Below, one piece after another: positions 48,163 through 63,978 of a DNA stretch of 64,000 bases; the stretch's first letter is position 1; each line of letters starts with the position of its first letter. The notes beneath the pieces are model-generated. The model made no database searches. It had not been told where the DNA came from and saw nothing but the letters and a program-made list of their open reading frames with translations. This stretch comes from Arthrobacter sp. NicSoilB4 (GTDB taxonomy: Bacteria > Actinomycetota > Actinomycetes > Actinomycetales > Micrococcaceae): assembly GCF_019977335.1 (NCBI RefSeq), contig NZ_AP024653.1, forward strand, positions 2,666,001-2,730,000, read 5' to 3'. The position numbers were made by a program, and so were the translations under genes.

Positions 48163-49104
48163 CTACAGACCGATGCTGATCGCTGCCAGGCCGGGGTAGA
48201 CGGCGAACAAGACCGTCAGCGGCAGGACGCCGAAGACCACGGGAATCATCATTGCGATTTCCTTCTTTCCGGCGGACTCCATCAAGTCCCGCTTTGCCGT
48301 GTCCCGGACGTCCTGGGCCTGTGCCCTCAGCACCTCCGCGAGAGGCGTTCCCCGTTCGACCGCGACGATCAGCCCGTCCACGAAGCGGAGCAATGGGCCG
48401 AGCTCAGTCCGTGACGAGAACTCCTGCAGCGCTTCCACGAGCGGCTTCCCTGCCCGGGTCTCGGCCAGGACGCGGGTGAAGTCCTTCGACAACTCTCCCC
48501 GGGCGCTGCGGCACACTCTGTCCAGTGCGCCCGTGGCGCTCTCACCCGCACTGACCGCGAGCGCCATGAGCTCGGCAATGCTGGGGAACTCCGCCATTAT
48601 GCGCGCTTCGCGCTTCCTGATCTGGGCGCCCAGCAGGTAATCCCGCAACATAAAACCGCCGGCCGCGCCGCCAAGCACCAGCACGACGGCCAGGAGGGGG
48701 CTGAACCGCCCGGCCACGCCGAATAGAACGACTGCTCCGGCAGCAGCGACAAATCCAGCCGCGCCCCAGAGAAGCTGCCCGGCCCGGAAATCGGCCGGCG
48801 ATTTGGCACTTCCTGCCCTGGCCAGACGTCGGTCCAACGCCGAGGAACCGCGGTTGAGCCTCCCCAGCCACGTCACAGCGTCGCCGAGAGCCGGACGCAG
48901 AATCCGTTCCAGGGGTCCGAACGGGGTGCTGTTTCCCGGCACCGTCCGCAGGAGCCGTGATTCCAGATTGTGGGACTTGAGCTGAGGGGCAATGCGTTCC
49001 GCAAACGTCGCCGGGCGCATGAACGGCAGCCTGACCATCAACAACCAGAAACCGCTGCCAAGGACAACTCCGCAGGCCACTGCCGCCGCGGTCAGCCCGG
49101 TCAC
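48163..49104 (-). CDS. tadC: Type II secretion F-family protein TadC
   Basis: A 313-residue T2SSF-domain protein. Hydrophobic segments lie at the N-terminus (VACGVVLGSGFWLLMV), the middle (PLLAVVLVLGGAAGGFMLRD) and the C-terminus (MMIPVVFGVLPLTVLFAVYP). The T2SSF core runs from FPSIAELMALAVSAGESATG to TPLAEVLRAQAQDVRDTAK. It forms the inner-membrane platform with TadB. GTG start in a GTGA overlap with the tadB stop. Confidence 0.9.
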   Translation of the reverse strand: MTGLTAAAVACGVVLGSGFWLLMVRLPFMRPATFAERIAPQLKSHNLESRLLRTVPGNSTPFGPLERILRPALGDAVTWLGRLNRGSSALDRRLARAGSAKSPADFRAGQLLWGAAGFVAAAGAVVLFGVAGRFSPLLAVVLVLGGAAGGFMLRDYLLGAQIRKREARIMAEFPSIAELMALAVSAGESATGALDRVCRSARGELSKDFTRVLAETRAGKPLVEALQEFSSRTELGPLLRFVDGLIVAVERGTPLAEVLRAQAQDVRDTAKRDLMESAGKKEIAMMIPVVFGVLPLTVLFAVYPGLAAISIGL

Positions 49105-49958
49105 CTGAGCACCCTCTCATCTGCCGGGAGCGCACCAATGCGCAGCATGACGGCATAGGAGACCAGGGAGACCGCCAGCCCGCCAAGCAGGACGGCGGCC
49201 CCGACGGGAGTGTTGTAGGCGGCCACCGCTTCGGGCCTGCTTGCCAGCAGCACCAGGACGATCCAGGGCGCTGCCACCGCAAGCCGGGCGGCGTTGACGG
49301 TCCAGGACTGACGGGCCTCCAGTTCGTTTCTGGTGCGCGCGCTCTCCCGCAGAAACTCCGCCAGAGTGCCCAACAAGCGGCCGAGATCGGAGCCGCCCAC
49401 CTCCCTCGTCAACCGGAGGGCCTCGACGATCCGGTCGGCCACGGGATCCGCCAGCCGGTCCTTGAGCCTGGTCAGGGAAGGATCAAACTGCCCGCCCGCA
49501 CGATAGTCAGAGCCAAATTCCCGGAACACCTGACGGAGTTCCTCCGGGCCCTTGTCGCCCAGTTGGATGAGGGCTTCCGGCAGCGACAGGCCGGCACGGA
49601 TCGCCGACCGCAAGTGGTCGACGACGTCGGGCCAGAGTTGGCGCAGCACGGCGGCGCGCTTCCGCGCGCGCCATTTCACGATAGCCATGGGCAGCCAGCC
49701 GCCAAACAGGCCAAAGCAGCCCGCGATCGGCCAGGACCTGGTCACTGCAAAGAAGACGAGCGTTGTGAAGGCTCCGACGCCGAGGCAGCTTGCCAGCAGT
49801 CCGGAGCCGCTGACTTTTTCTATTCCTGCGGTCCGCAGCAGATCCTCCAGACGCTTGGCCTTGCGAGGACCGGCGCCTGCAACTTTGGGTTGTTCCCAGG
49901 CAGACCACCAGATCAGCAGGAGTCCGGCACCGGCGAGCATGCCGAGAAGCGCTGCCAT
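49101..49958 (-). CDS. tadB: Type II secretion F-family protein TadB
   Basis: A 285-residue membrane protein. N-terminal helices are MAALLGMLAGAGLLLIWW and TLVFFAVTRSWPIAGCFG. The T2SSF region has LWPDVVDHLRSAIRAGLSLP and GGSDLGRLLGTLAEFLRESA. Two C-terminal helices follow. Start ATG 49958 overlaps the tadA stop by one base, so translation is coupled. Works with TadC as the platform of a Tad/Flp pilus. Confidence 0.9.
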   Translation of the reverse strand: MAALLGMLAGAGLLLIWWSAWEQPKVAGAGPRKAKRLEDLLRTAGIEKVSGSGLLASCLGVGAFTTLVFFAVTRSWPIAGCFGLFGGWLPMAIVKWRARKRAAVLRQLWPDVVDHLRSAIRAGLSLPEALIQLGDKGPEELRQVFREFGSDYRAGGQFDPSLTRLKDRLADPVADRIVEALRLTREVGGSDLGRLLGTLAEFLRESARTRNELEARQSWTVNAARLAVAAPWIVLVLLASRPEAVAAYNTPVGAAVLLGGLAVSLVSYAVMLRIGALPADERVLR

Positions 49959-51181
49959 CAGCGCGGTTCCAGCAGAGCCGCGACGTCGTAGCCGGATCGG
50001 GCGAATTTCTCGGCTGCGGGCATCGAGTTGGCCCTGGGCTGCAATTGTCCGTCCGCCAGCGCGAAGACCATCGAGGACTCGATGATGCCGTTTTCCACTC
50101 TCCGGCCCAACGACAGGATCTCTGTCACCTCTCTGCGTCCGCTGGCATGCCGGGCACAGTGCACCACGAGGTCGATGCACGAAGCGACGGTCGGAACCAC
50201 GAAGGCGCTTGAGATGTTCTCGCCTGCCAGCAACGGGAGGGTGCAGATCTTGGTGACCGCGTCGTGCGACGAATTTGCGTGGACCGTGCACATGCCTGGC
50301 AAACCAGAGTTCAAAGCGATCAGCATGTCCAGGCTCTCGGCCTCGCGGACCTCGCCCACCACCAGCCGGTCGGGGCGCATGCGCAGGGCCTCCTTGACCA
50401 GCCGGCGCATAGGGATTTCGCCTTCACCTTCCAGGTTGGGCTGCCGGCACTGCAGCCCCACGACGTCCCGCAGCGGAAACTGCAGTTCGAAGATCTCCTC
50501 CACGGTGATGACGCGCTCGCGGGTTCCAATGCTCGCGGCGAGGCAGTTGAGCATTGTGGTCTTGCCCGCCTGCGTTGCGCCGGAGACCAGGATGTTCAGG
50601 CCGCTGGCCACGGCCGCGCCGAGGAACCGGGCGGCCTGCGGTGTCAGCGTGCCCAGTTCCACCAGATGCTCCAGGCGGCTCGCTTTCACTACGAACTTAC
50701 GGATATTGATGGCCCAGTGACGCCTCGTCACGTCGGGAATCACAACGTGCAGGCGGGAACCATCGGGAAGGGCGGCATCCACAAAGGGTGACGACATGTC
50801 GAGCCGGCGCCCGGAACTCTTGAGCATCCGTTCCACGAGGTCCCGGACCTGCTGGTCTGTGAGCGAGACGGAGGTCAGCTCCGATTCGCCGTTCCGGGCC
50901 ACGTAGATCTCGTTCGGGGCGTTGAGCCAGATTTCTTCGATGGCGGGGTCGTCGAGAAGGGGCTGCAGGGCTCCGAACCCGGCCACGGCGTCGAAGACGA
51001 ATCTCCGGGCCGTCTCCAGCGGGCCGATTGGCGGGAGGGGACCAAGCAGGGTGCGCTCGTCGTAATCCATGACTGCTGCCTCGACGAGACGGCGGACTTC
51101 GCCGGCCTGCGTTGTGGGGTCGAGGCCGCGCCGGCGAATCAACTCGCGGACTTCGCCTTCGACGATGCGTACAGCCTCCAC
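49958..51181 (-). CDS. tadA: Tad/Flp pilus secretion ATPase TadA (CpaF family)
   Basis: A 407-residue VirB11/GspE-like ATPase. The Walker A motif is SGATQAGKTTMLN, the Asp-box ITVEEIFELQFP and the His box MCTVHANSSHDA are present. An N-terminal domain includes EEIWLNAPNEIYVARNGE. The GTG at 51181 with GGGGG six bases upstream is preferred over TTG 51193. First gene of the minus-strand tad cluster. No prepilin peptidase, TadZ or secretin-like gene is in the window. Confidence 0.92.
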   Translation of the reverse strand: MEAVRIVEGEVRELIRRRGLDPTTQAGEVRRLVEAAVMDYDERTLLGPLPPIGPLETARRFVFDAVAGFGALQPLLDDPAIEEIWLNAPNEIYVARNGESELTSVSLTDQQVRDLVERMLKSSGRRLDMSSPFVDAALPDGSRLHVVIPDVTRRHWAINIRKFVVKASRLEHLVELGTLTPQAARFLGAAVASGLNILVSGATQAGKTTMLNCLAASIGTRERVITVEEIFELQFPLRDVVGLQCRQPNLEGEGEIPMRRLVKEALRMRPDRLVVGEVREAESLDMLIALNSGLPGMCTVHANSSHDAVTKICTLPLLAGENISSAFVVPTVASCIDLVVHCARHASGRREVTEILSLGRRVENGIIESSMVFALADGQLQPRANSMPAAEKFARSGYDVAALLEPR

Positions 51182-51480
51182 AATGGCCCCCAATATGACT
51201 GCTTGCCCTGTCCCCGGGGCGCTGCAATTGGGTTAAAGCTAGAGGCGGCCGAGTCCCAGAACAAGGCCTAGCCGGGCTGCATGTGGAAAACCGCCATCCG
51301 CATTCATAACAATTATCACACTAGTCACACCAGAAACTCTGGTTCACCCTATTAGGCGATGTTAGGGTGGGCGCGACAAGTCAGACATTCTCACATCCCG
51401 GACAGCTTTGCATTGCTCAGCCCCCGGGTGCGAGACCATCATGACGCGGCCACCATCGTGTCATTGTTCCGGAGCGGCAA
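51182..51480. promoter_or_regulatory. Divergent control region of tadA and the lysozyme gene
   Basis: A 299-base gap without a believable gene. It holds an AT-rich stretch with TTCATAACAATTATCACAC near 51304, a CCAGAAACTCTGG inverted repeat near 51329 and GTTAGGGTGGG near 51361. The lysozyme ATG at 51481 is preceded by CCGGAG. Two promoters facing away are expected, but no -35/-10 pair is clear enough to name. Confidence 0.35.
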
Positions 51481-54462
51481 ATGAAGCGGACCCTACTTCC
51501 CCCCAACAGTCACCTCCACAGCCGGGCCGGAGCCGCGCTTCTGGCCACCGCTCTCCTGGCCGGCGCCGGTCTGGCTGCTCCGGCGGGTGCCGTTGAGCCC
51601 TCACCGAGCGCCTCTGCGACTCCCACAAGCACTTCGTCATTTTCGCCGTCCGCCCCTGCCAACCCGTCACCCACCGCGACCACCCCACCCCCAACTATTG
51701 CCCCCGAAATCCAGCAGGGCACTTCCGCAGCAACGACGGAGCCGGCGCCAGCCGACTACAGGTCCGTAATGGCGGCAGCCGCAGGTCCGGGCGGTGCCGA
51801 GATGGGCCATGGCGCCACCGGCGGGACAAGCGCAAAAACGGAGTCACTGGCCACCGAAGGGACCTGGACCCCAACGTTTGGTGTCCAGGGCCTGGACGTG
51901 AGTTATTACCAGGCAGGCGTCAATTGGCAGGAGCAGTGGAACATGGGCGCCCGCTTCGCCTATATCAAGGCCACTGAAGGCAATTACTATTCAAGTCCGT
52001 CTTTCGCTGCCCAGTACCAAGGTGCCCGGAACGTGGGCATGATCCGGGGCGCCTATCATTTTGCCAACCCGATGGCGTCCTCGGGAGCGGACCAAGCCAG
52101 AATCTTCGTTCAGGGCGGTGGCCGCTGGTCCGCTGACGGTTATACGCTGCCGCCGGTCCTCGACTTCGAGACGAACCCATATGCGGGACGGACAATCAAC
52201 GGCTTCTATCAGGGAAACACCTGCTACGACATGTCGGCCAGCCAGTTGGCAGGCTGGGCGCGCGACTTCGGCAATACGATGCTGTCGCTGACGGGCCGGA
52301 TGCCGGTCATCTATACCAACACGTCCTGGTGGCGACAGTGCGTCGGTGATGCAGCCGGATTTGGCGACTTCCCGCTGTGGACCGCCTATTGGCCGAGTTC
52401 AGCCAGCAACTACGCCGGCCCCCTGCCATCGAGCTGGTCGAGCTACAACTTCTGGCAGTACAGCGAGTCCGGCCCCTTCGCCGGAGACTCCAATGTCTGG
52501 AACGGCAGCTACGCAGAGTTAAGTGCCTTCGCCAACGCCGGAATTCCGCAAGCCGCTGTTAGGGCGATTGCTGATCTGGCGGCTGTTTCTCCGGGGCTGG
52601 GCCGGGCCGTGACCGGTTTGAAGACCGGTCTGAACGGTGGGGTGTCCCAGGGCTACGAGAATGGTGCGATCTACTGGACCGCCGCCAACGGAGCCCACAT
52701 CTCATCCGGTGTCATCCGGGATGCCTGGGGCGCCCAGGGCTGGGAAGCCGGAGTCCTCGGCTACCCCACCACCGACGTGCGGACCGCCGCCAACGGCGCC
52801 CAATCCCAGGGCTACCAAAACGGTGCGATCTACTGGACCGCAGCGACCGGGGCCCGCATCTCTACCGGTGCGATCCGGGATGCCTGGGGCGCCCAGGGCT
52901 GGGAAGCCGGGCCCCTCGGCTACCCCACCACCGACGTGAAGACCGCCCCCAACGGGGCCAAGTCCCAGGGCTACGAAAACGGTGCGATCTACTGGACCGC
53001 CGCCAACGGGGCCCGCATTTCATCCGGTGTCATCCGCGACGCCTGGGGCGCCCAGGGCTGGGAAGCCGGCCCCCTCGGCTACCCCACCACCGACGTCCGC
53101 ACTGCCCCCAACGGGGCCAAGTCCCAGGGCTACGAAAACGGTGCGATCTACTGGACCGCCGCGACCGGGGCCCGCATCTCTACCGGGGCGATCCGGGACG
53201 CCTGGGCTGCCCAGGGCTGGGAATCCGGGCCCCTCGGCTACCCCACCACCGACATACGGACCGGCCCGAAGAACGGACTGTCCCAGGGCTACGAAAACGG
53301 TGCGATCTACTGGACCGCCGCGACCGGCGCCCGCACGACATCCGGCGTCATCCGCGACGCCTGGGCCGCCCAGGGCTGGGAAGCCGGCCCCCTCGGCTAC
53401 CCCACCACCGACGTGCGGACCGCCCCCAACGGGGCCAAGTCCCAGGGCTACGAAAACGGTGCGATCTACTGGACCGCCGCGACCGGCGCCCGCATCTCAT
53501 CCGGTGTCATCCGCGACGCCTGGGCCGCCCAGGGCTGGGAATCCGGCCCCCTCGGCTACCCCACGACCGACGTGAAGACCGGCCCGAACAGCGGGCTGTC
53601 CCAGGGCTACGAAAACGGTGCGATCTACTGGACCGCCGCGACCGGCGCCCGAAGCACATCCGGCGTCATCCGCGACGCCTGGGCCGCCCAGGGCGCCGAA
53701 TCCGGCCCCCTCGGCTACCCCACCACCGACGTGCGGACCGCCCCGAACGGAGCCAAATCCCAGGGCTACGAAAACGGCGCGATCTACTGGACCGCCGCGA
53801 CCGGCGCCCACATCTCATCCGGAGCGATCCGGGATGCCTGGGCCGCCCAGGGCTGGGAAGCCGGCCCCCTCGGCTACCCCACCACCGACGTCCGGACCGC
53901 CCCCAACGGGGCCAAATCCCAGGGCTACCAAAACGGCGCGATCTACTGGACCGCCGCCAACGGGGCCCGCATCTCATCCGGCGTCATCCGCGACGCCTGG
54001 GCCGCCCAGGGCTGGGAATCCGGTCCCCTCGGCTACCCCACCACCGACATACGCACCGCCCCCAACGGAGCCAAATCCCAGGGCTACGAAAACGGCGCGA
54101 TCTACTGGACCGCCGCCACCGGAGCACACGTCTCATCCGGCGCAATCCGCGACGCCTGGGCCGCCCAGGGCTGGGAAACCGGACCCCTCGGCTACCCCAC
54201 CACCGACGTGAAAACCGCCCCCAACGGAGCCAAATCCCAGGGCTACCAAAACGGCGCGATCTACTGGACCACAACCACCGGAGCCCAACTCAGCCCCAAC
54301 GGACCCATCCGCAACGCCTGGGGCGCCCAAGGCTGGGAATCCGGCCCCCTCGGCTACCCCACGGGTCCCCAAACCTGCACCGCAGCCGCAGATAGCTGCA
54401 ACCAACCATTCACCGGCGGAAGAATCACATGGACACTTTCACGCGGCGCTTTCATCGGCTAG
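51481..54462 (+). CDS. Secreted GH25 lysozyme with C-terminal LGFP-type repeat array
   Basis: A 993-residue secreted protein. The signal peptide (AGAALLATALLAGAGLAAPA) probably ends near AGAVEP. A Ser/Thr/Pro linker covers about residues 40-90. The GH25 (Lyc muramidase) domain spans about 135-355, with GLDVSYYQAGVNW (Asp139), YIKATEG and the catalytic VLDFE (Asp228 and Glu230). From about residue 358 a repeat array follows: units of 53 residues with LGYPTTD and SQGYENGAIYW, ten in register plus partial ones at each end. LGFP-type repeats bind cell-wall or envelope structures. It probably cuts peptidoglycan near the cell surface. The array DNA is nearly identical to that of the next gene. It has no cell-wall sorting signal. 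Confidence 0.9.
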   Translation: MKRTLLPPNSHLHSRAGAALLATALLAGAGLAAPAGAVEPSPSASATPTSTSSFSPSAPANPSPTATTPPPTIAPEIQQGTSAATTEPAPADYRSVMAAAAGPGGAEMGHGATGGTSAKTESLATEGTWTPTFGVQGLDVSYYQAGVNWQEQWNMGARFAYIKATEGNYYSSPSFAAQYQGARNVGMIRGAYHFANPMASSGADQARIFVQGGGRWSADGYTLPPVLDFETNPYAGRTINGFYQGNTCYDMSASQLAGWARDFGNTMLSLTGRMPVIYTNTSWWRQCVGDAAGFGDFPLWTAYWPSSASNYAGPLPSSWSSYNFWQYSESGPFAGDSNVWNGSYAELSAFANAGIPQAAVRAIADLAAVSPGLGRAVTGLKTGLNGGVSQGYENGAIYWTAANGAHISSGVIRDAWGAQGWEAGVLGYPTTDVRTAANGAQSQGYQNGAIYWTAATGARISTGAIRDAWGAQGWEAGPLGYPTTDVKTAPNGAKSQGYENGAIYWTAANGARISSGVIRDAWGAQGWEAGPLGYPTTDVRTAPNGAKSQGYENGAIYWTAATGARISTGAIRDAWAAQGWESGPLGYPTTDIRTGPKNGLSQGYENGAIYWTAATGARTTSGVIRDAWAAQGWEAGPLGYPTTDVRTAPNGAKSQGYENGAIYWTAATGARISSGVIRDAWAAQGWESGPLGYPTTDVKTGPNSGLSQGYENGAIYWTAATGARSTSGVIRDAWAAQGAESGPLGYPTTDVRTAPNGAKSQGYENGAIYWTAATGAHISSGAIRDAWAAQGWEAGPLGYPTTDVRTAPNGAKSQGYQNGAIYWTAANGARISSGVIRDAWAAQGWESGPLGYPTTDIRTAPNGAKSQGYENGAIYWTAATGAHVSSGAIRDAWAAQGWETGPLGYPTTDVKTAPNGAKSQGYQNGAIYWTTTTGAQLSPNGPIRNAWGAQGWESGPLGYPTGPQTCTAAADSCNQPFTGGRITWTLSRGAFIG
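52552..54362 (+). repeat. LGFP array DNA, copy 1 of a 1.8-kb duplication
   Basis: 1811 bases, matched to 56074-57884 with offset 3522 and no gap. Only three differences were seen by eye: 53328, 54006 and 54024, all silent. Inside, LGYP codon units begin at 52756 and recur every 159 bases to 54187, then after 162 bases at 54349. The sharp edges are within coding frames of both proteins. Confidence 0.95.
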
Positions 54463-54480
54463 CTTCACCGGGCAATACGA

Positions 54481-54503
54481 GGGCGGTGCCGTCCGCGCCG
54501 CCC
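54481..54503 (+). terminator. Hairpin after the lysozyme gene
   Basis: GGGCGG (54481-54486) and CCGCCC (54498-54503) pair with an 11-base loop, 19 bases after the stop codon. No T-run. The rest of the 249-base gap before the protease gene holds only a GAAGGAA ribosome site. Confidence 0.4.
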
Positions 54504-54711
54504 GGCTCCCGAGCTGCCGCGCTCCCGCTTGTTTGCCGCAGGAAGCCACCACCGTGAGCGCAATCAGCCTCCTGCACGCATAGGAAATGCGAAGTATTCG
54601 CCCTACCGTCCGGATCGCTGTAAAACCGGTCCATAAACTACTCTGACTTCCCTGTCTCGCCGTGAACGCCCCAAGCGCCGGCTGTAGGCACCATGTTCTT
54701 CGAAGGAAAAA

Positions 54712-57700
54712 ATGAATCCCAAACGGATGATGGCAGCCCTTGTCACAGCTGTGGTTGTCGCGGCGGCGTCGCTGACCGCAGTCTCGGCTGCTGCAGCTCA
54801 GGCAACAGAGCCGCTGCCGTCGGCTACTTCGACAGCGGCCCCTGCGGCTCCGGCCGCACCTTCGGAGCCGGAGCCGACTGTTCAGCCGACCGCAACGGCG
54901 ACGTCGACGGACGCGGCAGTCGCCTCGGAGGGGACGACTCCTTCTTCCCCCGCAGTTGCGGAGACAACCGCTATTCCTCCGGTCGTTGAACAGACCGGCG
55001 GTGCGCCAACCTCTGTCCACACCTTCCAGACGCCCCCCTTGGAGGGAAGCAAGGGAGCGGCGCCGCGGGCACTCGGTACGGAGTCCTACTCGCTCGCACG
55101 GACCGGAGTCATCAAAGTGCGGCTTGTGACCGTGCAGCTAACCGATTACAAGGCCAACATCTCCATGGACACCGCAGTTTCCGCTGTCCAGGCGACCAGC
55201 AACTACTGGCAAACCATGTCCAATGGCAGGCTCAGCATGAGCGTCGCCAGCACCGAGACGCTTAACAGCCGCAGCGCCTCCTCAGGCCAACGATATTCAG
55301 ACATGATGAACACGATCACCAATGAACTTGGCTGGGTTGCAAACCCCTACACGGCTCTCGTGGTCTTCGTTTCGACGCCGACGCTCTCCGACGGGGCCTA
55401 CGGTGCGGGCTGGAGCTACAACGGGACCAGCGGGCGCGTAATCATGCCGCTTCCGGCATCCCTGACTCGAAGTGTCCTCACGCACGAATTCGGCCACGTA
55501 CTCGGCCTCATGCACGCCAACAGCCTCGAGTGTGGCAGCGGTGCCCAGGACGTTGCGACCAACAGCGATGGCACGTTTGCAGATGCATCATGCAGCGTCC
55601 GGGAATACGGCGACAGCATGGACCTCATGGGAGTCTCCCAGACGTCCCAACCGACAATCAGCTCAACGCTGTGGGAATTTGGCGGCTTCGGCACCGGACG
55701 CGAGATCCGGGATGTCGGCAAGGCCGGCAACACGAGCAGTTACACACTCACAGCGTGGGCCGGAGGAGCCGACGGCCGAGCCGTGAAATTCACCGATCCG
55801 GTGAGCGGGGAGGTCTACTATCTGGAGTTGCGCCTGCCGGTCGGCTACGACGCTACTACCGCCACCAACGGCAACCGCGGCGTGAAGATCGTTCAACGGT
55901 TCGGAGCGGGCTCCCTGATCCTCATGCCAGATTCCCGCCGCTTCGCAGGCTATTACAGCTCCCGCCATGCCTGGCAGGCGGGTGAAACCTTCACAACGCA
56001 TGCAGGCTCCCGGGTGTCGGTCAACTGGATCTCCGACACGGCCGCCGGCATCACTATTGAGTCGACCGCTGCCGCCGCTGTTAGGGCGATTGCTGATCTG
56101 GCGGCTGTTTCTCCGGGGCTGGGCCGGGCCGTGACCGGTTTGAAGACCGGTCTGAACGGTGGGGTGTCCCAGGGCTACGAGAATGGTGCGATCTACTGGA
56201 CCGCCGCCAACGGAGCCCACATCTCATCCGGTGTCATCCGGGATGCCTGGGGCGCCCAGGGCTGGGAAGCCGGAGTCCTCGGCTACCCCACCACCGACGT
56301 GCGGACCGCCGCCAACGGCGCCCAATCCCAGGGCTACCAAAACGGTGCGATCTACTGGACCGCAGCGACCGGGGCCCGCATCTCTACCGGTGCGATCCGG
56401 GATGCCTGGGGCGCCCAGGGCTGGGAAGCCGGGCCCCTCGGCTACCCCACCACCGACGTGAAGACCGCCCCCAACGGGGCCAAGTCCCAGGGCTACGAAA
56501 ACGGTGCGATCTACTGGACCGCCGCCAACGGGGCCCGCATTTCATCCGGTGTCATCCGCGACGCCTGGGGCGCCCAGGGCTGGGAAGCCGGCCCCCTCGG
56601 CTACCCCACCACCGACGTCCGCACTGCCCCCAACGGGGCCAAGTCCCAGGGCTACGAAAACGGTGCGATCTACTGGACCGCCGCGACCGGGGCCCGCATC
56701 TCTACCGGGGCGATCCGGGACGCCTGGGCTGCCCAGGGCTGGGAATCCGGGCCCCTCGGCTACCCCACCACCGACATACGGACCGGCCCGAAGAACGGAC
56801 TGTCCCAGGGCTACGAAAACGGTGCGATCTACTGGACCGCCGCGACCGGGGCCCGCACGACATCCGGCGTCATCCGCGACGCCTGGGCCGCCCAGGGCTG
56901 GGAAGCCGGCCCCCTCGGCTACCCCACCACCGACGTGCGGACCGCCCCCAACGGGGCCAAGTCCCAGGGCTACGAAAACGGTGCGATCTACTGGACCGCC
57001 GCGACCGGCGCCCGCATCTCATCCGGTGTCATCCGCGACGCCTGGGCCGCCCAGGGCTGGGAATCCGGCCCCCTCGGCTACCCCACGACCGACGTGAAGA
57101 CCGGCCCGAACAGCGGGCTGTCCCAGGGCTACGAAAACGGTGCGATCTACTGGACCGCCGCGACCGGCGCCCGAAGCACATCCGGCGTCATCCGCGACGC
57201 CTGGGCCGCCCAGGGCGCCGAATCCGGCCCCCTCGGCTACCCCACCACCGACGTGCGGACCGCCCCGAACGGAGCCAAATCCCAGGGCTACGAAAACGGC
57301 GCGATCTACTGGACCGCCGCGACCGGCGCCCACATCTCATCCGGAGCGATCCGGGATGCCTGGGCCGCCCAGGGCTGGGAAGCCGGCCCCCTCGGCTACC
57401 CCACCACCGACGTCCGGACCGCCCCCAACGGGGCCAAATCCCAGGGCTACCAAAACGGCGCGATCTACTGGACCGCCGCCAACGGGGCCCGCATCTCATC
57501 CGGCGTCATCCGCGACGCCTGGGCCGCGCAGGGCTGGGAATCCGGCCCCCTCGGCTACCCCACCACCGACATACGCACCGCCCCCAACGGAGCCAAATCC
57601 CAGGGCTACGAAAACGGCGCGATCTACTGGACCGCCGCCACCGGAGCACACGTCTCATCCGGCGCAATCCGCGACGCCTGGGCCGCCCAGGGCTGGGAAA

Positions 57701-57990
57701 CCGGACCCCTCGGCTACCCCACCACCGACGTGAAAACCGCCCCCAACGGAGCCAAATCCCAGGGCTACCAAAACGGCGCGATCTACTGGACCACAACCAC
57801 CGGAGCCCAACTCAGCCCCAACGGACCCATCCGCAACGCCTGGGGCGCCCAAGGCTGGGAATCCGGCCCCCTCGGCTACCCCACCACCGGCGTGTATTCG
57901 ACAGGGAACGGCAACCTTGCCCAGAACTTCCAGGGCGGCCGAATCGACTGGTCATCAACTGCGGGAGTAAAGACCACCCTGTCCCGATGA
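54712..57990 (+). CDS. Secreted metzincin-type protease with C-terminal LGFP-type repeat array
   Basis: A 1092-residue secreted protein. The signal peptide MMAALVTAVVVAAASLTAVS probably ends at AAAAQA. A Pro/Thr-rich linker covers about residues 33-100. The protease domain carries HEFGHVLGLMH (His258, Glu259, His262, His268) and a Met-turn DSMDLMG (Met306), the metzincin pattern and close to the M11/gametolysin group. From about residue 455 it carries the same LGFP-type array as the lysozyme, identical in protein sequence over about 600 residues, then a different short end (GRIDWSSTAGVKTTLSR). It has GAAGGAA before the ATG. Substrate unknown; a wall or surface protein is likely. Confidence 0.87.
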   Translation: MNPKRMMAALVTAVVVAAASLTAVSAAAAQATEPLPSATSTAAPAAPAAPSEPEPTVQPTATATSTDAAVASEGTTPSSPAVAETTAIPPVVEQTGGAPTSVHTFQTPPLEGSKGAAPRALGTESYSLARTGVIKVRLVTVQLTDYKANISMDTAVSAVQATSNYWQTMSNGRLSMSVASTETLNSRSASSGQRYSDMMNTITNELGWVANPYTALVVFVSTPTLSDGAYGAGWSYNGTSGRVIMPLPASLTRSVLTHEFGHVLGLMHANSLECGSGAQDVATNSDGTFADASCSVREYGDSMDLMGVSQTSQPTISSTLWEFGGFGTGREIRDVGKAGNTSSYTLTAWAGGADGRAVKFTDPVSGEVYYLELRLPVGYDATTATNGNRGVKIVQRFGAGSLILMPDSRRFAGYYSSRHAWQAGETFTTHAGSRVSVNWISDTAAGITIESTAAAAVRAIADLAAVSPGLGRAVTGLKTGLNGGVSQGYENGAIYWTAANGAHISSGVIRDAWGAQGWEAGVLGYPTTDVRTAANGAQSQGYQNGAIYWTAATGARISTGAIRDAWGAQGWEAGPLGYPTTDVKTAPNGAKSQGYENGAIYWTAANGARISSGVIRDAWGAQGWEAGPLGYPTTDVRTAPNGAKSQGYENGAIYWTAATGARISTGAIRDAWAAQGWESGPLGYPTTDIRTGPKNGLSQGYENGAIYWTAATGARTTSGVIRDAWAAQGWEAGPLGYPTTDVRTAPNGAKSQGYENGAIYWTAATGARISSGVIRDAWAAQGWESGPLGYPTTDVKTGPNSGLSQGYENGAIYWTAATGARSTSGVIRDAWAAQGAESGPLGYPTTDVRTAPNGAKSQGYENGAIYWTAATGAHISSGAIRDAWAAQGWEAGPLGYPTTDVRTAPNGAKSQGYQNGAIYWTAANGARISSGVIRDAWAAQGWESGPLGYPTTDIRTAPNGAKSQGYENGAIYWTAATGAHVSSGAIRDAWAAQGWETGPLGYPTTDVKTAPNGAKSQGYQNGAIYWTTTTGAQLSPNGPIRNAWGAQGWESGPLGYPTTGVYSTGNGNLAQNFQGGRIDWSSTAGVKTTLSR
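56074..57884 (+). repeat. LGFP array DNA, copy 2 of a 1.8-kb duplication
   Basis: Matches 52552-54362 over 1811 bases. Differences by eye are at 56850 (G for C), 57528 (G for C) and 57546 (C for T), each a silent third-position change. Both ends fall inside the coding sequence, and the unique flanks on either side are unrelated. Confidence 0.95.
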
Positions 57991-58106: not shown

Positions 58107-59243
58107 ATGCGAGAAAAACCAGTAACCAACGGAACCTCGGCCGAGACCCGGCCGCTCAGAGTCGCCGTTGCTATGCTCACCCTGGTACCCGGCGGGATGG
58201 GCGGTGGCGAAACCTATGCCCGGGGGCTTCTCCGCGGCCTGACCTCCATCCGGGGTGTTGCCGCGACTGCATTTGTCAGCAACACAGCAGCCGGTTTTTC
58301 AGACCCCATTCCGGAGGTTGTCTGCCCCGAGATAGCCGGCGGAGGGTCCGCCAAGGACCGGATAACAACGCTCGTCGCCGGCCTGCTCAAGCGCAAGTCG
58401 CTCGTGGCCCGCATGGCAGGCAACGATGTTTTTCACGTTCCCTTCGCCGTGAACGTTCCGCTGCCTTCTCGGTCGGTGGCGACTGTGCAGACCCTGTGCG
58501 ACGTGCAACATCGTGACCTTCCCCACCTCTTCAGCCGCGTGGAGCGGCTCTACCGACGAGTCTTCTACGAACGTACGGCACGGAAAGCGGACGCCGTCGT
58601 CACCATCAGCGACTTTGCAAAGCGGACGATCGTAGAACACCTAAAGATCTCCCCCGAGAAGATCTTCACCGCCCACTTGGCTGTCGACGCAGACCAATTC
58701 ACGCCCAATCTCGGTGATCGGGAGAACTTCGTCTTCTACCCGGCACGTGGCTGGGCCCACAAGAACCATGCCGTCCTCTTCGACGCCATGCGTCTTTTGC
58801 AGGACGAACGGCCCGAACTGCGATTGGTTCTCACTGGTGGAGGCCTCGACCATCTCATCGATGTCCCGGAAAATGTAGAGGTCAAGGGCCTCGTGCCCTT
58901 CCCGGAGTTGATTGAGCTGTACCGCAAGGCAAAGTGCCTGGTCTTCCCCAGTTTGTACGAAGGATTCGGCTTGCCTCCCCTGGAAGCGATGGCCTCGGGA
59001 TGCCCAGTGGCTTCGTCGACGGCCGGCTCTCTTCCCGAAGTCTGCGGCGACGCTGCAGTCATGTTTGATCCGCATTCGCCCCGTGCGATCGCGGACGGAA
59101 TCATCGAAGCCATCGCCCGGACCTCCGAGCTCCAAATCAAGGGGTTCCAGCAAGTTGAAAAGTTCACCTGGGATAAATGTGCGGAGGCACATGAAGCCGC
59201 CTACCGCTACGCCGCAAGGCAGCACGCACAGTCCGTTCGCTAG
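58107..59243 (+). CDS. Glycosyltransferase family 4
   Basis: A 378-residue GT-B fold glycosyltransferase. The N-terminal acceptor half starts RVAVAMLTLVPGGMGGGETY. The donor half has FYPARGWAHKNHAVLFDAM and the family E-x7-E motif in FPSLYEGFGLPPLEAMASG, followed by PEVCGDAAVMFDP. The sugar donor is probably a GDP- or UDP-sugar; GDP-mannose-type donors are suggested by the two dehydratases next to it (inference). Cytoplasmic face of the membrane. A leaderless-type promoter precedes it. Confidence 0.9.
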   Translation: MREKPVTNGTSAETRPLRVAVAMLTLVPGGMGGGETYARGLLRGLTSIRGVAATAFVSNTAAGFSDPIPEVVCPEIAGGGSAKDRITTLVAGLLKRKSLVARMAGNDVFHVPFAVNVPLPSRSVATVQTLCDVQHRDLPHLFSRVERLYRRVFYERTARKADAVVTISDFAKRTIVEHLKISPEKIFTAHLAVDADQFTPNLGDRENFVFYPARGWAHKNHAVLFDAMRLLQDERPELRLVLTGGGLDHLIDVPENVEVKGLVPFPELIELYRKAKCLVFPSLYEGFGLPPLEAMASGCPVASSTAGSLPEVCGDAAVMFDPHSPRAIADGIIEAIARTSELQIKGFQQVEKFTWDKCAEAHEAAYRYAARQHAQSVR

Positions 59244-59319
59244 CTCCAATCCGCTGTTCAGCACCCAACCCGATATAGTGGCTGTGCTTGACTCTTCGAC
59301 TTAAAGGACAATTTTCCCC

Positions 59320-60303
59320 ATGCCTCGTGCGCTCATTACCGGTATCACTGGTCAGGACGGTCTTTACCTTGCAGAGCTGCTGCTTTCCAAGGGCTATGAA
59401 GTTTTTGGCCTGATCAGGGGTCAGAACAATCCCAAATTCGATCTGGTCCGTAAGACGGTCCCCGATGTGAAGCTCCTCACGGGGGACCTGACGGACGTGT
59501 CCTCGCTCGTCCGCGTACTGGCAATTTCGCAGCCTGACGAGATTTACAACCTTGGGGCGATCTCCTTCGTAGCCTATTCGTGGGAAAACGCGTCCATGAC
59601 GTCGGATGTCACCGGCAAGGGCGTGCTCAACATCCTCGAGGCCACCCGGCTGTACGCAGGTGACGACATCGGCAAGGTTCGCTTTTACCAGGCGTCTTCG
59701 TCCGAGATGTTCGGGAAGGTCCAGCAAGTCCCCCAGCGGGAGGAAACACTGCTGTGGCCCCGCTCGCCTTATGGAGTCGCGAAAGTCTTCGGTCACTACA
59801 TGACCATCAACTACCGCGAGTCGTACGGAATGCACGCCTCCAGCGGAATCCTGTTCAACCACGAGTCCCCCCGACGCGGGCCGGAGTTTGTGACGCGCAA
59901 GGTCTCTCAGGCTGTCGCCCGCATCAAGCTCGGTTTGCAGGATGAGATCGTGCTGGGAAACCTGGACGCCAAACGTGACTGGGGTTTCGCCGGGGACTAT
60001 GTTGAGGCCATGTGGCTCATGCTGCAGCAGCCCGAAGCAGATGACTACGTCATCTCCACCGGGGAAACCCATTCCATCGAGGAACTGCTGGCAGCAGCCT
60101 TCGCGGCAGCGGGACTCGACGATTGGCGCCGCTATGTCCGCCAGGACCCCAAGTTCATGCGTCCGGCAGAGGTTGACCTTCTCATCGGCGACGCGGCGAA
60201 GGCACAGACTGTCCTCGGATGGAAGCCCAAGGTTTCCTTCAATGAGCTCGTAACCATGATGGTCGAGAACGACCTGGTGGAGCAGCGGCTGCTCGCCAAA
60301 TGA
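59320..60303 (+). CDS. gmd: GDP-mannose 4,6-dehydratase
   Basis: A 327-residue short-chain dehydrogenase. [19 protein letters not shown] is the GMD dinucleotide-binding signature. The catalytic residues are in [12 protein letters not shown] (Ser, Glu) and SPYGVAK (Tyr, Lys). [16 protein letters not shown] is a further GMD motif. It turns GDP-mannose into GDP-4-keto-6-deoxymannose, the first step to GDP-rhamnose, fucose or perosamine sugars. TATAGT at 59274-59279 and an AAAGGAC ribosome site precede it. Overlaps the next gene by four bases. Confidence 0.92.
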
Positions 60304-61325
60304 CCACCGCACCAGCCCGCGATGGAGTTCGCAGCACCCGGACGGCTTTCATTACGGGCGTTACCGGCCAGGACGGTTCCTACTTGGCCGAACAGCTGGC
60401 CAGCGCCGGGTGGCGCGTCCACGGGATGGTCCGGGCAGAGGATGCGTCACCCCCGCAGGATCTTCATGCAGGGGTGACGCTCCACGACGGAGACCTCTCG
60501 AATGCCCCGCGGCTGTCCCGCCTCGTGGAAGAAATCCAACCCGACACGATCTTCAACCTCGGGGGCACCAGCTCGGTAGCAGCGTCGTGGAAAAAACCAT
60601 ACGAAACGTCCGTCAGCACCGGCGCAGCCTCCATTGCCTTGCTCGAAGCCGCGTGGTTGCTTCAGGAACGAACCGGAAATGAAGTCCGGTTCCTGCAAGC
60701 CTCCAGTGCCGAGATCTTCGGCAATGCCACTCAGGTGCCCCAGAATGAGCGCACTCCAGTCAGTCCGATTACACCGTATGGTGCGGCCAAAGCATTCGCG
60801 CACCATGCCGTTGGCACTTACCGGGCACGCGGGCTTTTCGCCTGCTCGGCAATCCTGTACAACCATGAGTCGCTCCGCCGGCCCGCGAGTTTCGTTACGC
60901 GTCGAATCACCTTGGGCGTAGCTGCAATTGCACTGGGGCTCAAAGACCGTTTGAGTTTGGGCAACCTTGACGCTGTCCGGGACTTCGGATGGGCGCCAGA
61001 CTACGTTGATGCCCTGGCGAGAATAGCGACGGCCGAACAGGCGGATGATTTCGTGGTCGCGACCGGAGTTTCGCACAGCGTGAGGGACTTCGCAGAGGCT
61101 GCTTTCTCTGCAGCCGGAATCTCGGACGGACTGTCGCGAGTGGACACTGATCCCAGATTTCGCCGCCCGGTCGACGCCTCCGAGATGCGTGGCGACCCTG
61201 GCAAGATTTCAGCGACTCTTGGCTGGAAGGCGACCACCAGTTTTGACGGCATCGTACAGACCATGGTCGAACACGACATCGAAGTCGTCCGCAACAGCGG
61301 ACTAGCGGCGCTACCAGCGGATTAG
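60300..61325 (+). CDS. GDP-mannose 4,6-dehydratase-like epimerase/dehydratase, diverged paralogue
   Basis: A 341-residue paralogue of the preceding gene. [20 protein letters not shown] and the catalytic ASSAEIFGN and TPYGAAK are kept. The NHES motif becomes [16 protein letters not shown]. The first 16 residues are an extension. It could be a second dehydratase with a different substrate, a partner subunit, or a reductase such as RMD acting on the 4-keto sugar. Translation is coupled to gmd, so both very likely act on the same sugar pathway. Confidence 0.82.
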
Positions 61326-61384
61326 ACGGACAGCGCATCACGACAGCCAGTGCATCACGACAACGTTTGGATGCTGATTACAAC

Positions 61385-62713
61385 GTGAAAGCTCCCGAAT
61401 TGACGGATATTACCCAGTCATCCGAGTTTGTCCCCGAACCGCCTCCAAGCAGCGGTGAGACAATATCAGCCAAATCTGCCGCGGGCGTCGGTGGGGCTTC
61501 GGTGGTGGCGGCCGCAGCCGGCATCGTCATTCTCTTCATCACGAGTCACGCGCTGTCGCCGGCCGACAATGCAGAGTTCCTATCGTTCTGGGCCGCATTG
61601 TTTTTCGTCTGCGGCGTTCTCGGCGGGATTCAGGCAGAGACAACCAGGGCTGTGGGCGCGGCCCGCAGGCCAAGGCCTGCGGGCACTCCCAGGGGCGCGC
61701 GCGTACTGGCATCCGGACTGATTGTTGGTTTGGCCTCAGCACTGGTCATCCTCGCCCTGTCCCCCATTTTGAGCAACTACATATTTCACCGTGACTCCGG
61801 AGCCATTATTGGAGCCCTTGTTGCCACGGCAGTTTTATTCTCATGCCACGCCACATTGGCCGGGGCCGCCCAAGGCCATGACAAGTGGTCGCTCTTCGCC
61901 GGACTGGTTTCACTGGAAGCCCTGCTCCGCCTTGGAGCCATTGCGGTCGCAGCCGCGCTCGCCGCTCCGCTTCTGGGACTGGAACTGGCATGCCTCGCTG
62001 CCCTCGCCGCCTGGCTGATAGTGACGCTTATCTTCCCGACCGCCAGGGCCTCGCTCGCGGCCCGCGCCGATGTGGGCCTCGGCAGGCTTCTTCAGAACAC
62101 CGGACACGCCCTGCTCTCAGCCGCATCTTCCGCTGCCCTGATCGTCGCATTCCCGATCCTGCTGAAGCTCACCACCTCGCCAGCCGACTACGCTTTGTCC
62201 GCGCCCATTCTCCTGGCCATATCGCTCACCCGTGCGCCGATCATGGTTCCACTTCAGGCCTTCCAGGGCGTTGCGCTGACCGAGGTGGTCAAGAACCCCC
62301 GGGACGGCTGGAAGGCGTTGAAGAAGCCACTTGCTGCACTGCTCGCTATCGGCGTCGTCGGCGCCGTCGCGGCTTGGCTGATCGGCCCCTGGCTGATGCT
62401 CTTTTTCGGCCCCGACTACCGTGTGGACGGTTGGGCTCTCGCCGCCCTGACACTTGCTGCCGTGTTGATGGCAGTCCTCACCTTGCTCGGCACCATCGTC
62501 ATCGGCTTAGGCAATCATCGGGCATACTCTGCCGGATGGCTGACAGCAACAGCGGTAGCCGTCGCGCTTCTCCTGCTCCCGGCCAGTGTCGAAGTTCGCA
62601 GCATTCTGAGTTTGGGGCTGGGCCCCCTCGCGGGGATCGTCGTCCATGCATTGGCGATTGCCCGCATTGTTCGCCCCCAGCGTGAAACTGCCGACCAGGT
62701 CGTAGATCCCTAG
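61385..62713 (+). CDS. Polytopic membrane protein, probable polysaccharide flippase
   Basis: A 442-residue protein with about 12 hydrophobic helices, such as VVAAAAGIVILFITSHALSP, ALVILALSPILSNYIF and LLAIGVVGAVAAWLIGPWLM. The pattern and the sugar-gene context fit the Wzx/MATE-like polysaccharide export group, but I see no signature residue, so the name is inferred. Start uncertain: GTG 61385 and TTG 61367 are both in frame and neither has a clear ribosome site. It would flip lipid-linked oligosaccharides across the membrane. Confidence 0.65.
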   Translation: MKAPELTDITQSSEFVPEPPPSSGETISAKSAAGVGGASVVAAAAGIVILFITSHALSPADNAEFLSFWAALFFVCGVLGGIQAETTRAVGAARRPRPAGTPRGARVLASGLIVGLASALVILALSPILSNYIFHRDSGAIIGALVATAVLFSCHATLAGAAQGHDKWSLFAGLVSLEALLRLGAIAVAAALAAPLLGLELACLAALAAWLIVTLIFPTARASLAARADVGLGRLLQNTGHALLSAASSAALIVAFPILLKLTTSPADYALSAPILLAISLTRAPIMVPLQAFQGVALTEVVKNPRDGWKALKKPLAALLAIGVVGAVAAWLIGPWLMLFFGPDYRVDGWALAALTLAAVLMAVLTLLGTIVIGLGNHRAYSAGWLTATAVAVALLLLPASVEVRSILSLGLGPLAGIVVHALAIARIVRPQRETADQVVDP

Positions 62714-62742
62714 GCCACCCAGAGGCCCCGGGGGCAGCCCGC

Positions 62743-63978
62743 CTACCTCGCCCCTAACACGAAGTCTTTCAGCCGGCCCAGAACTATGCTTCGTTCAAGG
62801 TTGGCGAAGTGGTAAGCCTTGCCGCTCTCGCCAAGGCCCTTGCGTTCCTGCGGAGACATTCGGTACAGCGTCCGGATGTTTTCGGCCAAAGCGGCGGCAT
62901 CGGCAGCCGGACCCACGAGTCCACACTGTGCTTCATCCTCGACGAGCGTCCGGACTTCGCCATCCATGGCCAGTGCAAGCGGGCGGCCCGAGGCGATGTA
63001 AGACATGACCTTGGCCGGAATGGTCGCTTCAAGCAGATCGCTCTTGACGAGGCAGCCGACCAGCACATCCGCCAACGTCGTGTACTTGGGGATGTCGGAA
63101 ACCGGATGGTGTCCTTCAAAGCGGAACACGCCCTCAAGACCCCGCCGCGCCACTTCCTGTTCCAGTTCGCTCCGGCTCATACCGTCGCCCACAATTACCC
63201 ACACAATGTCTGTCAGGCCCTCGTGATGGAGCTCTTCGGCCGCATCAACAATGGTTTCGAAGGATTGCGCAGGGCTGATGTTTCCGGTGAAGACGACCTT
63301 GAAGCCCTCGCCCAGGCGCTTTGCCAGCTCAGGCTCATAGATTTCTTCTTCGTAGAGACTTTCGCAAGCCTGCGGCACGACAGTAATCCGGTCATCGGGG
63401 AGACCGGTTATGCCTTTGATTTTGGCACGCATCTGTTCGGACAGCACGACAATTTTGTCCGGTTGGCGGTAATGCCAATGAGATATCTTTTCTGCCAAAC
63501 GACGGAACAACTTGTTTTTCACGTGCAAAACAGAAAAGAGATTTTCCGGCCACAAATCGAGGACATACATCGTGGATTCTATGCCCCGGATCTTCGAGAT
63601 AAGAATCCCTGTGATCGACATCATTACCGGCGAAAGCTGGTATAGAAAAACTTTGTCGTACTTGCCGAAGAGCAATCTCGGCAAATGCAGCAGACTCCCG
63701 ACAGGAAATGACACATAGTTCAGGAAGATTCGAAGGCTCGAATTATCTCCCCGGGGGATCTCCGGGGCCCGGTAAATCTTGATCCCCTTGTGTTCTTGCC
63801 TAAATGGACCTCGCAGCGAGTATCCCGGATAGAGTTGTCCCTGCGGATAGTTGGGAAGGCCGCATAGAACCTCCACATCCAGTCCGTTTTCGACAAAATA
63901 ATCGCAGATATCGTTTATCCGGAAGCCCTCCGGCCAGAAATGCTGGCCGACGACGAGTACTTTGGGCTTACTGTTCAT
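62743..63978 (-). CDS. WcaI-like glycosyltransferase family 4 protein
   Basis: A 411-residue GT4 protein. The start VLVVGQHFWPEGFRINDICD and the motif GLPNYPQGQLYPGY resemble WcaI colanic-acid-type transferases. The donor half has VVFTGNISPAQSFETIVDAA, GDGMSRSELEQEV and IPAKVMSYIASGRPLALAM (variant of the E-x7-E region). The codon use is visibly more A/T-rich than in the neighbouring genes, a hint of recent transfer. It is convergent to the flippase gene. The start lies 22 bases from the window end, so upstream context is missing. Confidence 0.88.
   Translation of the reverse strand: MNSKPKVLVVGQHFWPEGFRINDICDYFVENGLDVEVLCGLPNYPQGQLYPGYSLRGPFRQEHKGIKIYRAPEIPRGDNSSLRIFLNYVSFPVGSLLHLPRLLFGKYDKVFLYQLSPVMMSITGILISKIRGIESTMYVLDLWPENLFSVLHVKNKLFRRLAEKISHWHYRQPDKIVVLSEQMRAKIKGITGLPDDRITVVPQACESLYEEEIYEPELAKRLGEGFKVVFTGNISPAQSFETIVDAAEELHHEGLTDIVWVIVGDGMSRSELEQEVARRGLEGVFRFEGHHPVSDIPKYTTLADVLVGCLVKSDLLEATIPAKVMSYIASGRPLALAMDGEVRTLVEDEAQCGLVGPAADAAALAENIRTLYRMSPQERKGLGESGKAYHFANLERSIVLGRLKDFVLGAR

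Follow-up and report, generated by a model that had tools for sequence, protein, structure and literature searches.

The window analyzed here is a stretch of 64,000 nucleotides from Arthrobacter sp. NicSoilB4. It contains two + strand genes in head-to-tail order with 249 bp between them, both defined from the open reading frame list and Pfam. The first (51481-54462, 993 aa) encodes a GH25 muramidase and the second (54712-57990, 1092 aa) a secreted metzincin protease. The muramidase consists of a signal peptide, a Pro/Thr-rich linker, the GH25 head, an LGFP array and a C-terminal cap. The protease has a signal peptide, a linker, the metzincin head, an LGFP array and a cap unlike the one on the muramidase. 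The GH25 head (51865-52551, + strand) matches Pfam PF01183 at 6e-46. Its catalytic Asp and Asp-x-Glu motifs are present and can be read in the translation as LDVSYYQ (D139) and LDFE (within VLDFE; D228, E230).

The protease head (55093-56064, + strand, 324 aa) was delimited with its sequence relatives and with a model of low to medium confidence that resembles metzincins. It has the HExxHxxGxxH zinc site and downstream Met-turn that define this group, here HEFGHVLGLMH (55483-55515, + strand) and DLMG (55621-55632). Among its relatives the histidines that bind zinc do not vary, nor do the glutamate and the methionine, so we assign it to the metzincins. The preliminary description called it M11-like, but no profile backs family M11. 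Pfam instead gives weak matches to Peptidase_M43 and Reprolysin_5, and an NCBIfam search with the protease assigned no family. The top Foldseek matches of the head model (pLDDT 63) are InhA2 peptidase, ADAMTS and snake-venom metalloproteases, all at low TM-score.

Both arrays are on the + strand. The muramidase array (52552-54362) opens with a leading half repeat that is followed by LGFP repeats of 53 codons (159 bp), and the metzincin copy lies at 56074-57884. Pfam PF08310 finds 12 stretches above its cut-off in each protein, with 609 and 594 bits. The repeats (52645-54362 and 56167-57894) do not have the cysteine pair of most relatives in the genus, and neither does MytA of Corynebacterium. 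A structure prediction for the array (pLDDT 49, pTM 0.22) made a repeating pattern of helix and strands visible and nothing else; it is not counted as evidence here.

The preliminary description reported the same set of about a dozen repeats on both enzymes, and the likeness is stronger than that. Across 1,811 bp the two arrays have 3 mismatches, all synonymous, and no indels (99.83% identity; dN 0, dS 0.006). For comparison, the window heads differ from the nearest species by a dS of 1.0-1.9 and the neighbouring tad genes by 0.4-1.4. The identity does not cover the whole tail. It starts exactly at the start of the module and stops short of the two dissimilar caps (54363-54459 and 57885-57987, both + strand). 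Repeats within one array are about 13% different from each other in DNA. Between the genes, repeats of equal rank differ by 0-2 bases, versus 10-17 bases for the closest repeat of another rank. Since it is the same-rank repeats that match, the copied tracts were long and in register, and judged on the sequence the window array was copied whole. This identity is far above chance or the usual family resemblance. Searching the window genome (2 contigs, 4.04 Mb) for other open reading frames with the array, as had been proposed, gave these two LGFP genes and no others. Near-identical repeats of 1.8 kb are a classic assembly trap, and one can imagine that the assembler used one array twice. However, the copies differ at 3 positions, the caps are unlike, the genome is in just those 2 contigs, and the pattern recurs with other identity values in five further genomes, of which G139 and G189 are single contigs and G194, G031 and G153 have the pair on an unbroken stretch. 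An artefact is therefore most improbable.

It is worth considering how the two genes are distributed in the genus, 206 genomes of which were all covered in at least one search with the protease head. The GH25 head is found in 194 of 198 genomes, making it a core gene of the genus, and the metzincin head in 105 of 198. The GH25 gene has a fixed site: in almost every flank examined it lies divergently next to tadA of a Tad pilus operon. In the window, tadA/B/C occupy 48163-51193 on the - strand, and the muramidase gene starts divergently at 51481. A muramidase tied in this way to the pilus locus may open peptidoglycan for the pilus. The metzincin lies directly 3' of GH25 in six genomes: the window genome (G000), G139, G194, G153, G031 and G189. 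In the other genomes examined it is away from GH25, in several by about 385 kb. The metzincin gene of Arthrobacter sp. OVS8 (G053; L126 / L104) is in pieces through a frameshift.

All six head-to-tail pairs are equalised. The arrays are identical within the genome at 99.83% in the window, 100% in G139, 99.75% in G194, 97.5% in G189, 97.0% in G031 and 92.6% in G153. The tandem is therefore present in five other species of the genus, and this recurrence is observed directly, as is the absence of the likeness when the genes are apart. Among 18 genomes with separated genes the best tail match is 84.8% (G018, 381 kb apart). Most such pairs have no alignable match, and sometimes the tails are of another kind, namely FG-GAP repeats. 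A Fisher test of tandem versus separated genes gives about 1e-5 with 17 distant genomes, a value that is too optimistic since the genomes are related to one another. In G156 the GH25 and metzincin tails (L117, L118) are 73% alike over 883 bp on different contigs, with no other close match; this is possibly an older copying at a distance. G156 and G018 both weigh against the explanation proposed below.

Arrays on the same head are mostly 75-85% alike from species to species. The copies are therefore closer within a genome than orthologous copies are between species, which is the mark of concerted evolution. The metzincins of G031 and G153 are sister heads (100/98) that each lie beside GH25. Their arrays match the neighbouring gene at 97.0 and 92.6%, versus 80.6% for the array of the sister, so homogenisation must have gone on after the split. 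The tract in G139 is 1,484 bp with zero differences and reaches 17 bp beyond both stop codons. A tract that crosses the stop codon means that DNA was copied, beyond anything conservation of the protein alone would do. The ends also vary between species, as can be seen directly: they fall in 3' non-coding DNA in G139, in the last codons in G153, inside the array in G194 and G189, and at the caps in the window. Homogenised silent sites and non-coding DNA together with variable tract ends are marks of concerted evolution by gene conversion. Selection on the protein alone is insufficient to account for these ends, the silent homogenisation and the overrun in G139.

We argue that two non-homologous neighbouring enzymes have in common a putative wall-binding module, which very probably evolves in concert through gene conversion. 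Two secreted enzymes with unrelated heads would each end in an LGFP module that, by analogy with MytA, anchors to the cell wall. With the genes head to tail, conversion would repeatedly overwrite one module with the other. Its tracts would be long, beginning at the module start or inside it and ending inside the module or beyond the stop codon. The modules would stay matched within a genome and diverge between species, giving the muramidase and the metzincin the same wall address. Gene conversion is the event we infer from the sequences. One can instead imagine a single recent copying of the tail onto the neighbouring head in each lineage, with no continued homogenisation. The nearest species relatives of the window genome, judged by GH25 head and by rpoB, are G046 and G089. 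In both, GH25 carries FG-GAP and the metzincin lies at another place, so the window GH25 probably gained its LGFP tail recently, as that scenario would have it. However, G031/G153 and G139/G194 have sister metzincin heads beside GH25 and yet their arrays group by genome. The identities are graded from 92.6 to 100% too, which suggests repeated events. We consider a one-off replacement unlikely.

The tail on either head can be an LGFP array, an FG-GAP array or of some other kind. G081, G125 and G177 have FG-GAP on both GH25 and metzincin. G046, G078 and G089 combine an LGFP-tailed metzincin with an FG-GAP-tailed GH25. The preliminary description envisaged a toolkit in which the catalytic part is exchanged and the targeting part stays fixed. 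The first half stands, because one targeting module is carried by two heads here and again in the five other species. The second half does not, because the arrays are 15-23% different between species and heads and anchors are both exchanged. The FG-GAP and other tails on both heads rule out a single toolkit with a fixed anchor. It was also held that finding the array in many unrelated neighbours would speak against the idea. This is partly the case, as LGFP arrays in the genus are also found on L,D-transpeptidase-like, CAP, subtilase and polysaccharide-deacetylase heads. The distinctive feature is that only these two neighbours have their anchor DNA kept equal.

The tandem state requires 3 changes on the metzincin tree and 5 on the rpoB tree. 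On the metzincin tree the heads from the window, G139 and G194 are monophyletic (100/99), whereas monophyly of the three genomes is rejected with rpoB (p-AU 0.019). A metzincin-plus-LGFP unit likely entered the tad-GH25 locus more than once, and its tail was then copied onto GH25 or the reverse. The intergenic region was also considered. The intergenic alignment places TTCCCTGTCTC, a variant of the motif TTCCCGGTCTC, upstream of the metzincin at 54648-54658 (+ strand). Most metzincin genes, whether tandem or separate, have TTCCCGGTCTC in their upstream DNA, and no GH25 gene does. This distribution implies that the metzincin carries its own control region, and going by the motif it need not share an operon with GH25. 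A G+C-rich inverted repeat right after the GH25 stop (54481-54503, + strand) is a weak candidate for a transcription stop between the genes. It does not have a T run, and terminator-like sites in this region are not above shuffles. Sigma-70-type promoters in the region are not above shuffles either, and no riboswitch or other known RNA was found in it.

MytA of C. glutamicum binds peptidoglycan-arabinogalactan through its LGFP repeats, according to a paper that summarizes Dietrich 2020 (PMC11299179). By sequence, the window array is clearly related (7e-34) to the solved MytA/PS1 domain structures (PDB 6swz, 6sx4). Like MytA, both window enzymes are secreted and have tandem LGFP repeats at the C-terminus, and the sequence relation is detectable. 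We infer by this analogy that the window arrays are wall anchors, and that both enzymes would attach to one common glycan linked to the wall of the producer. The muramidase and the metzincin could then act jointly. MytA differs in having 5 repeats versus about 11 here, in its catalytic head and in its wall chemistry, and it has no described partner gene that carries an identical module. This genus is not known to have the mycolate-arabinogalactan wall of Corynebacterium. A polysaccharide cluster lies directly 3' of the pair at 58107-63978, with glycosyltransferases, two nucleotide-sugar dehydratase/epimerase-like genes and a flippase-like gene. A homologue of the latter is found downstream in G031 and G153 too. 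That this cluster could make the ligand of the array is a guess.

Proximity by itself is not enough for equalisation. Other head-to-tail LGFP genes, 183-1,137 bp apart, have arrays that cannot be aligned or reach no more than 83% identity. Examples are metzincin/L,D-transpeptidase-like (G031, G153), deacetylase/GH25 (G012) and CAP/subtilase (G059), and they rule out closeness as a sufficient cause. The G059 genes (L088:849-6280) are 1.1 kb apart with arrays 83% identical. A third gene type, in which a YkuD-type L,D-transpeptidase-like domain comes after the LGFP repeats (L072:9556-11631, L075:10305-12311, L071:8916-10847, L097:665-2611), is often in the same cluster and its array is not equalised with its neighbours. 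Either the modules of such neighbours drifted below the similarity that recombination needs, or selection favours a match between GH25 and metzincin. In the selective scenario both enzymes must bind one fast-changing wall glycan and matching conversion tracts are favoured. It would explain why the GH25/metzincin pair alone is equalised and other LGFP neighbours are not. Equal repeat numbers between partners in 4 of 6 tandem pairs and the polysaccharide cluster 3' of the window pair also fit. However, the mismatched anchors in many genomes, such as G046, G078 and G089, mean that a common address is not generally required, and copying alone accounts for the silent identity. We regard such selection as possible but less probable than its absence.

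The ingredients are already known singly: GH25, metzincins, LGFP repeats and gene conversion between neighbours. In Podospora anserina the WD40 repeats of NWD/HNWD (PMC1805685) form a module that, unlike the other domains, evolves in concert across genes through exchange between loci. Those are fungal genes at ten dispersed loci with the whole architecture in common, whereas ours are two neighbours with non-homologous heads. The Streptococcus mutans gtfB/gtfC tandem (PMC3586492) is another case of adjoining wall or surface-enzyme genes with long shared DNA that recombines, giving RecA-linked fusions. However, gtfB and gtfC are homologous over their full length and here the anchor alone is shared. 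The PE/PPE genes of Mycobacterium tuberculosis (PMC12046097) undergo gene conversion between paralogous secreted-protein genes in an actinomycete, but they are paralogues of one family and not two enzymes of unrelated fold. The pairing had been put forward as undescribed, and in searches of the open-licence literature that combined LGFP with Arthrobacter or GH25, neither the pair nor its coupling was described. Within the open literature searched, copying limited to the anchor of two non-homologous enzymes, in six species, seems undescribed.

This gives a clear and replicated bacterial case of concerted evolution limited to the targeting module of two otherwise unrelated enzymes. Such genes call for caution, since their annotation and short-read assembly are error-prone. 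Six tandem pairs, many separated pairs and two module types within one genus amount to a natural experiment on how wall-enzyme specificity changes, and the matched anchors are ready as a set for binding tests. It is a speculative and rather doubtful idea that muramidase and metzincin are a selected co-targeting unit in which conversion keeps the wall address in step as the glycan changes between species. If it is true, other adjoining LGFP genes would need no match and would be left to diverge.
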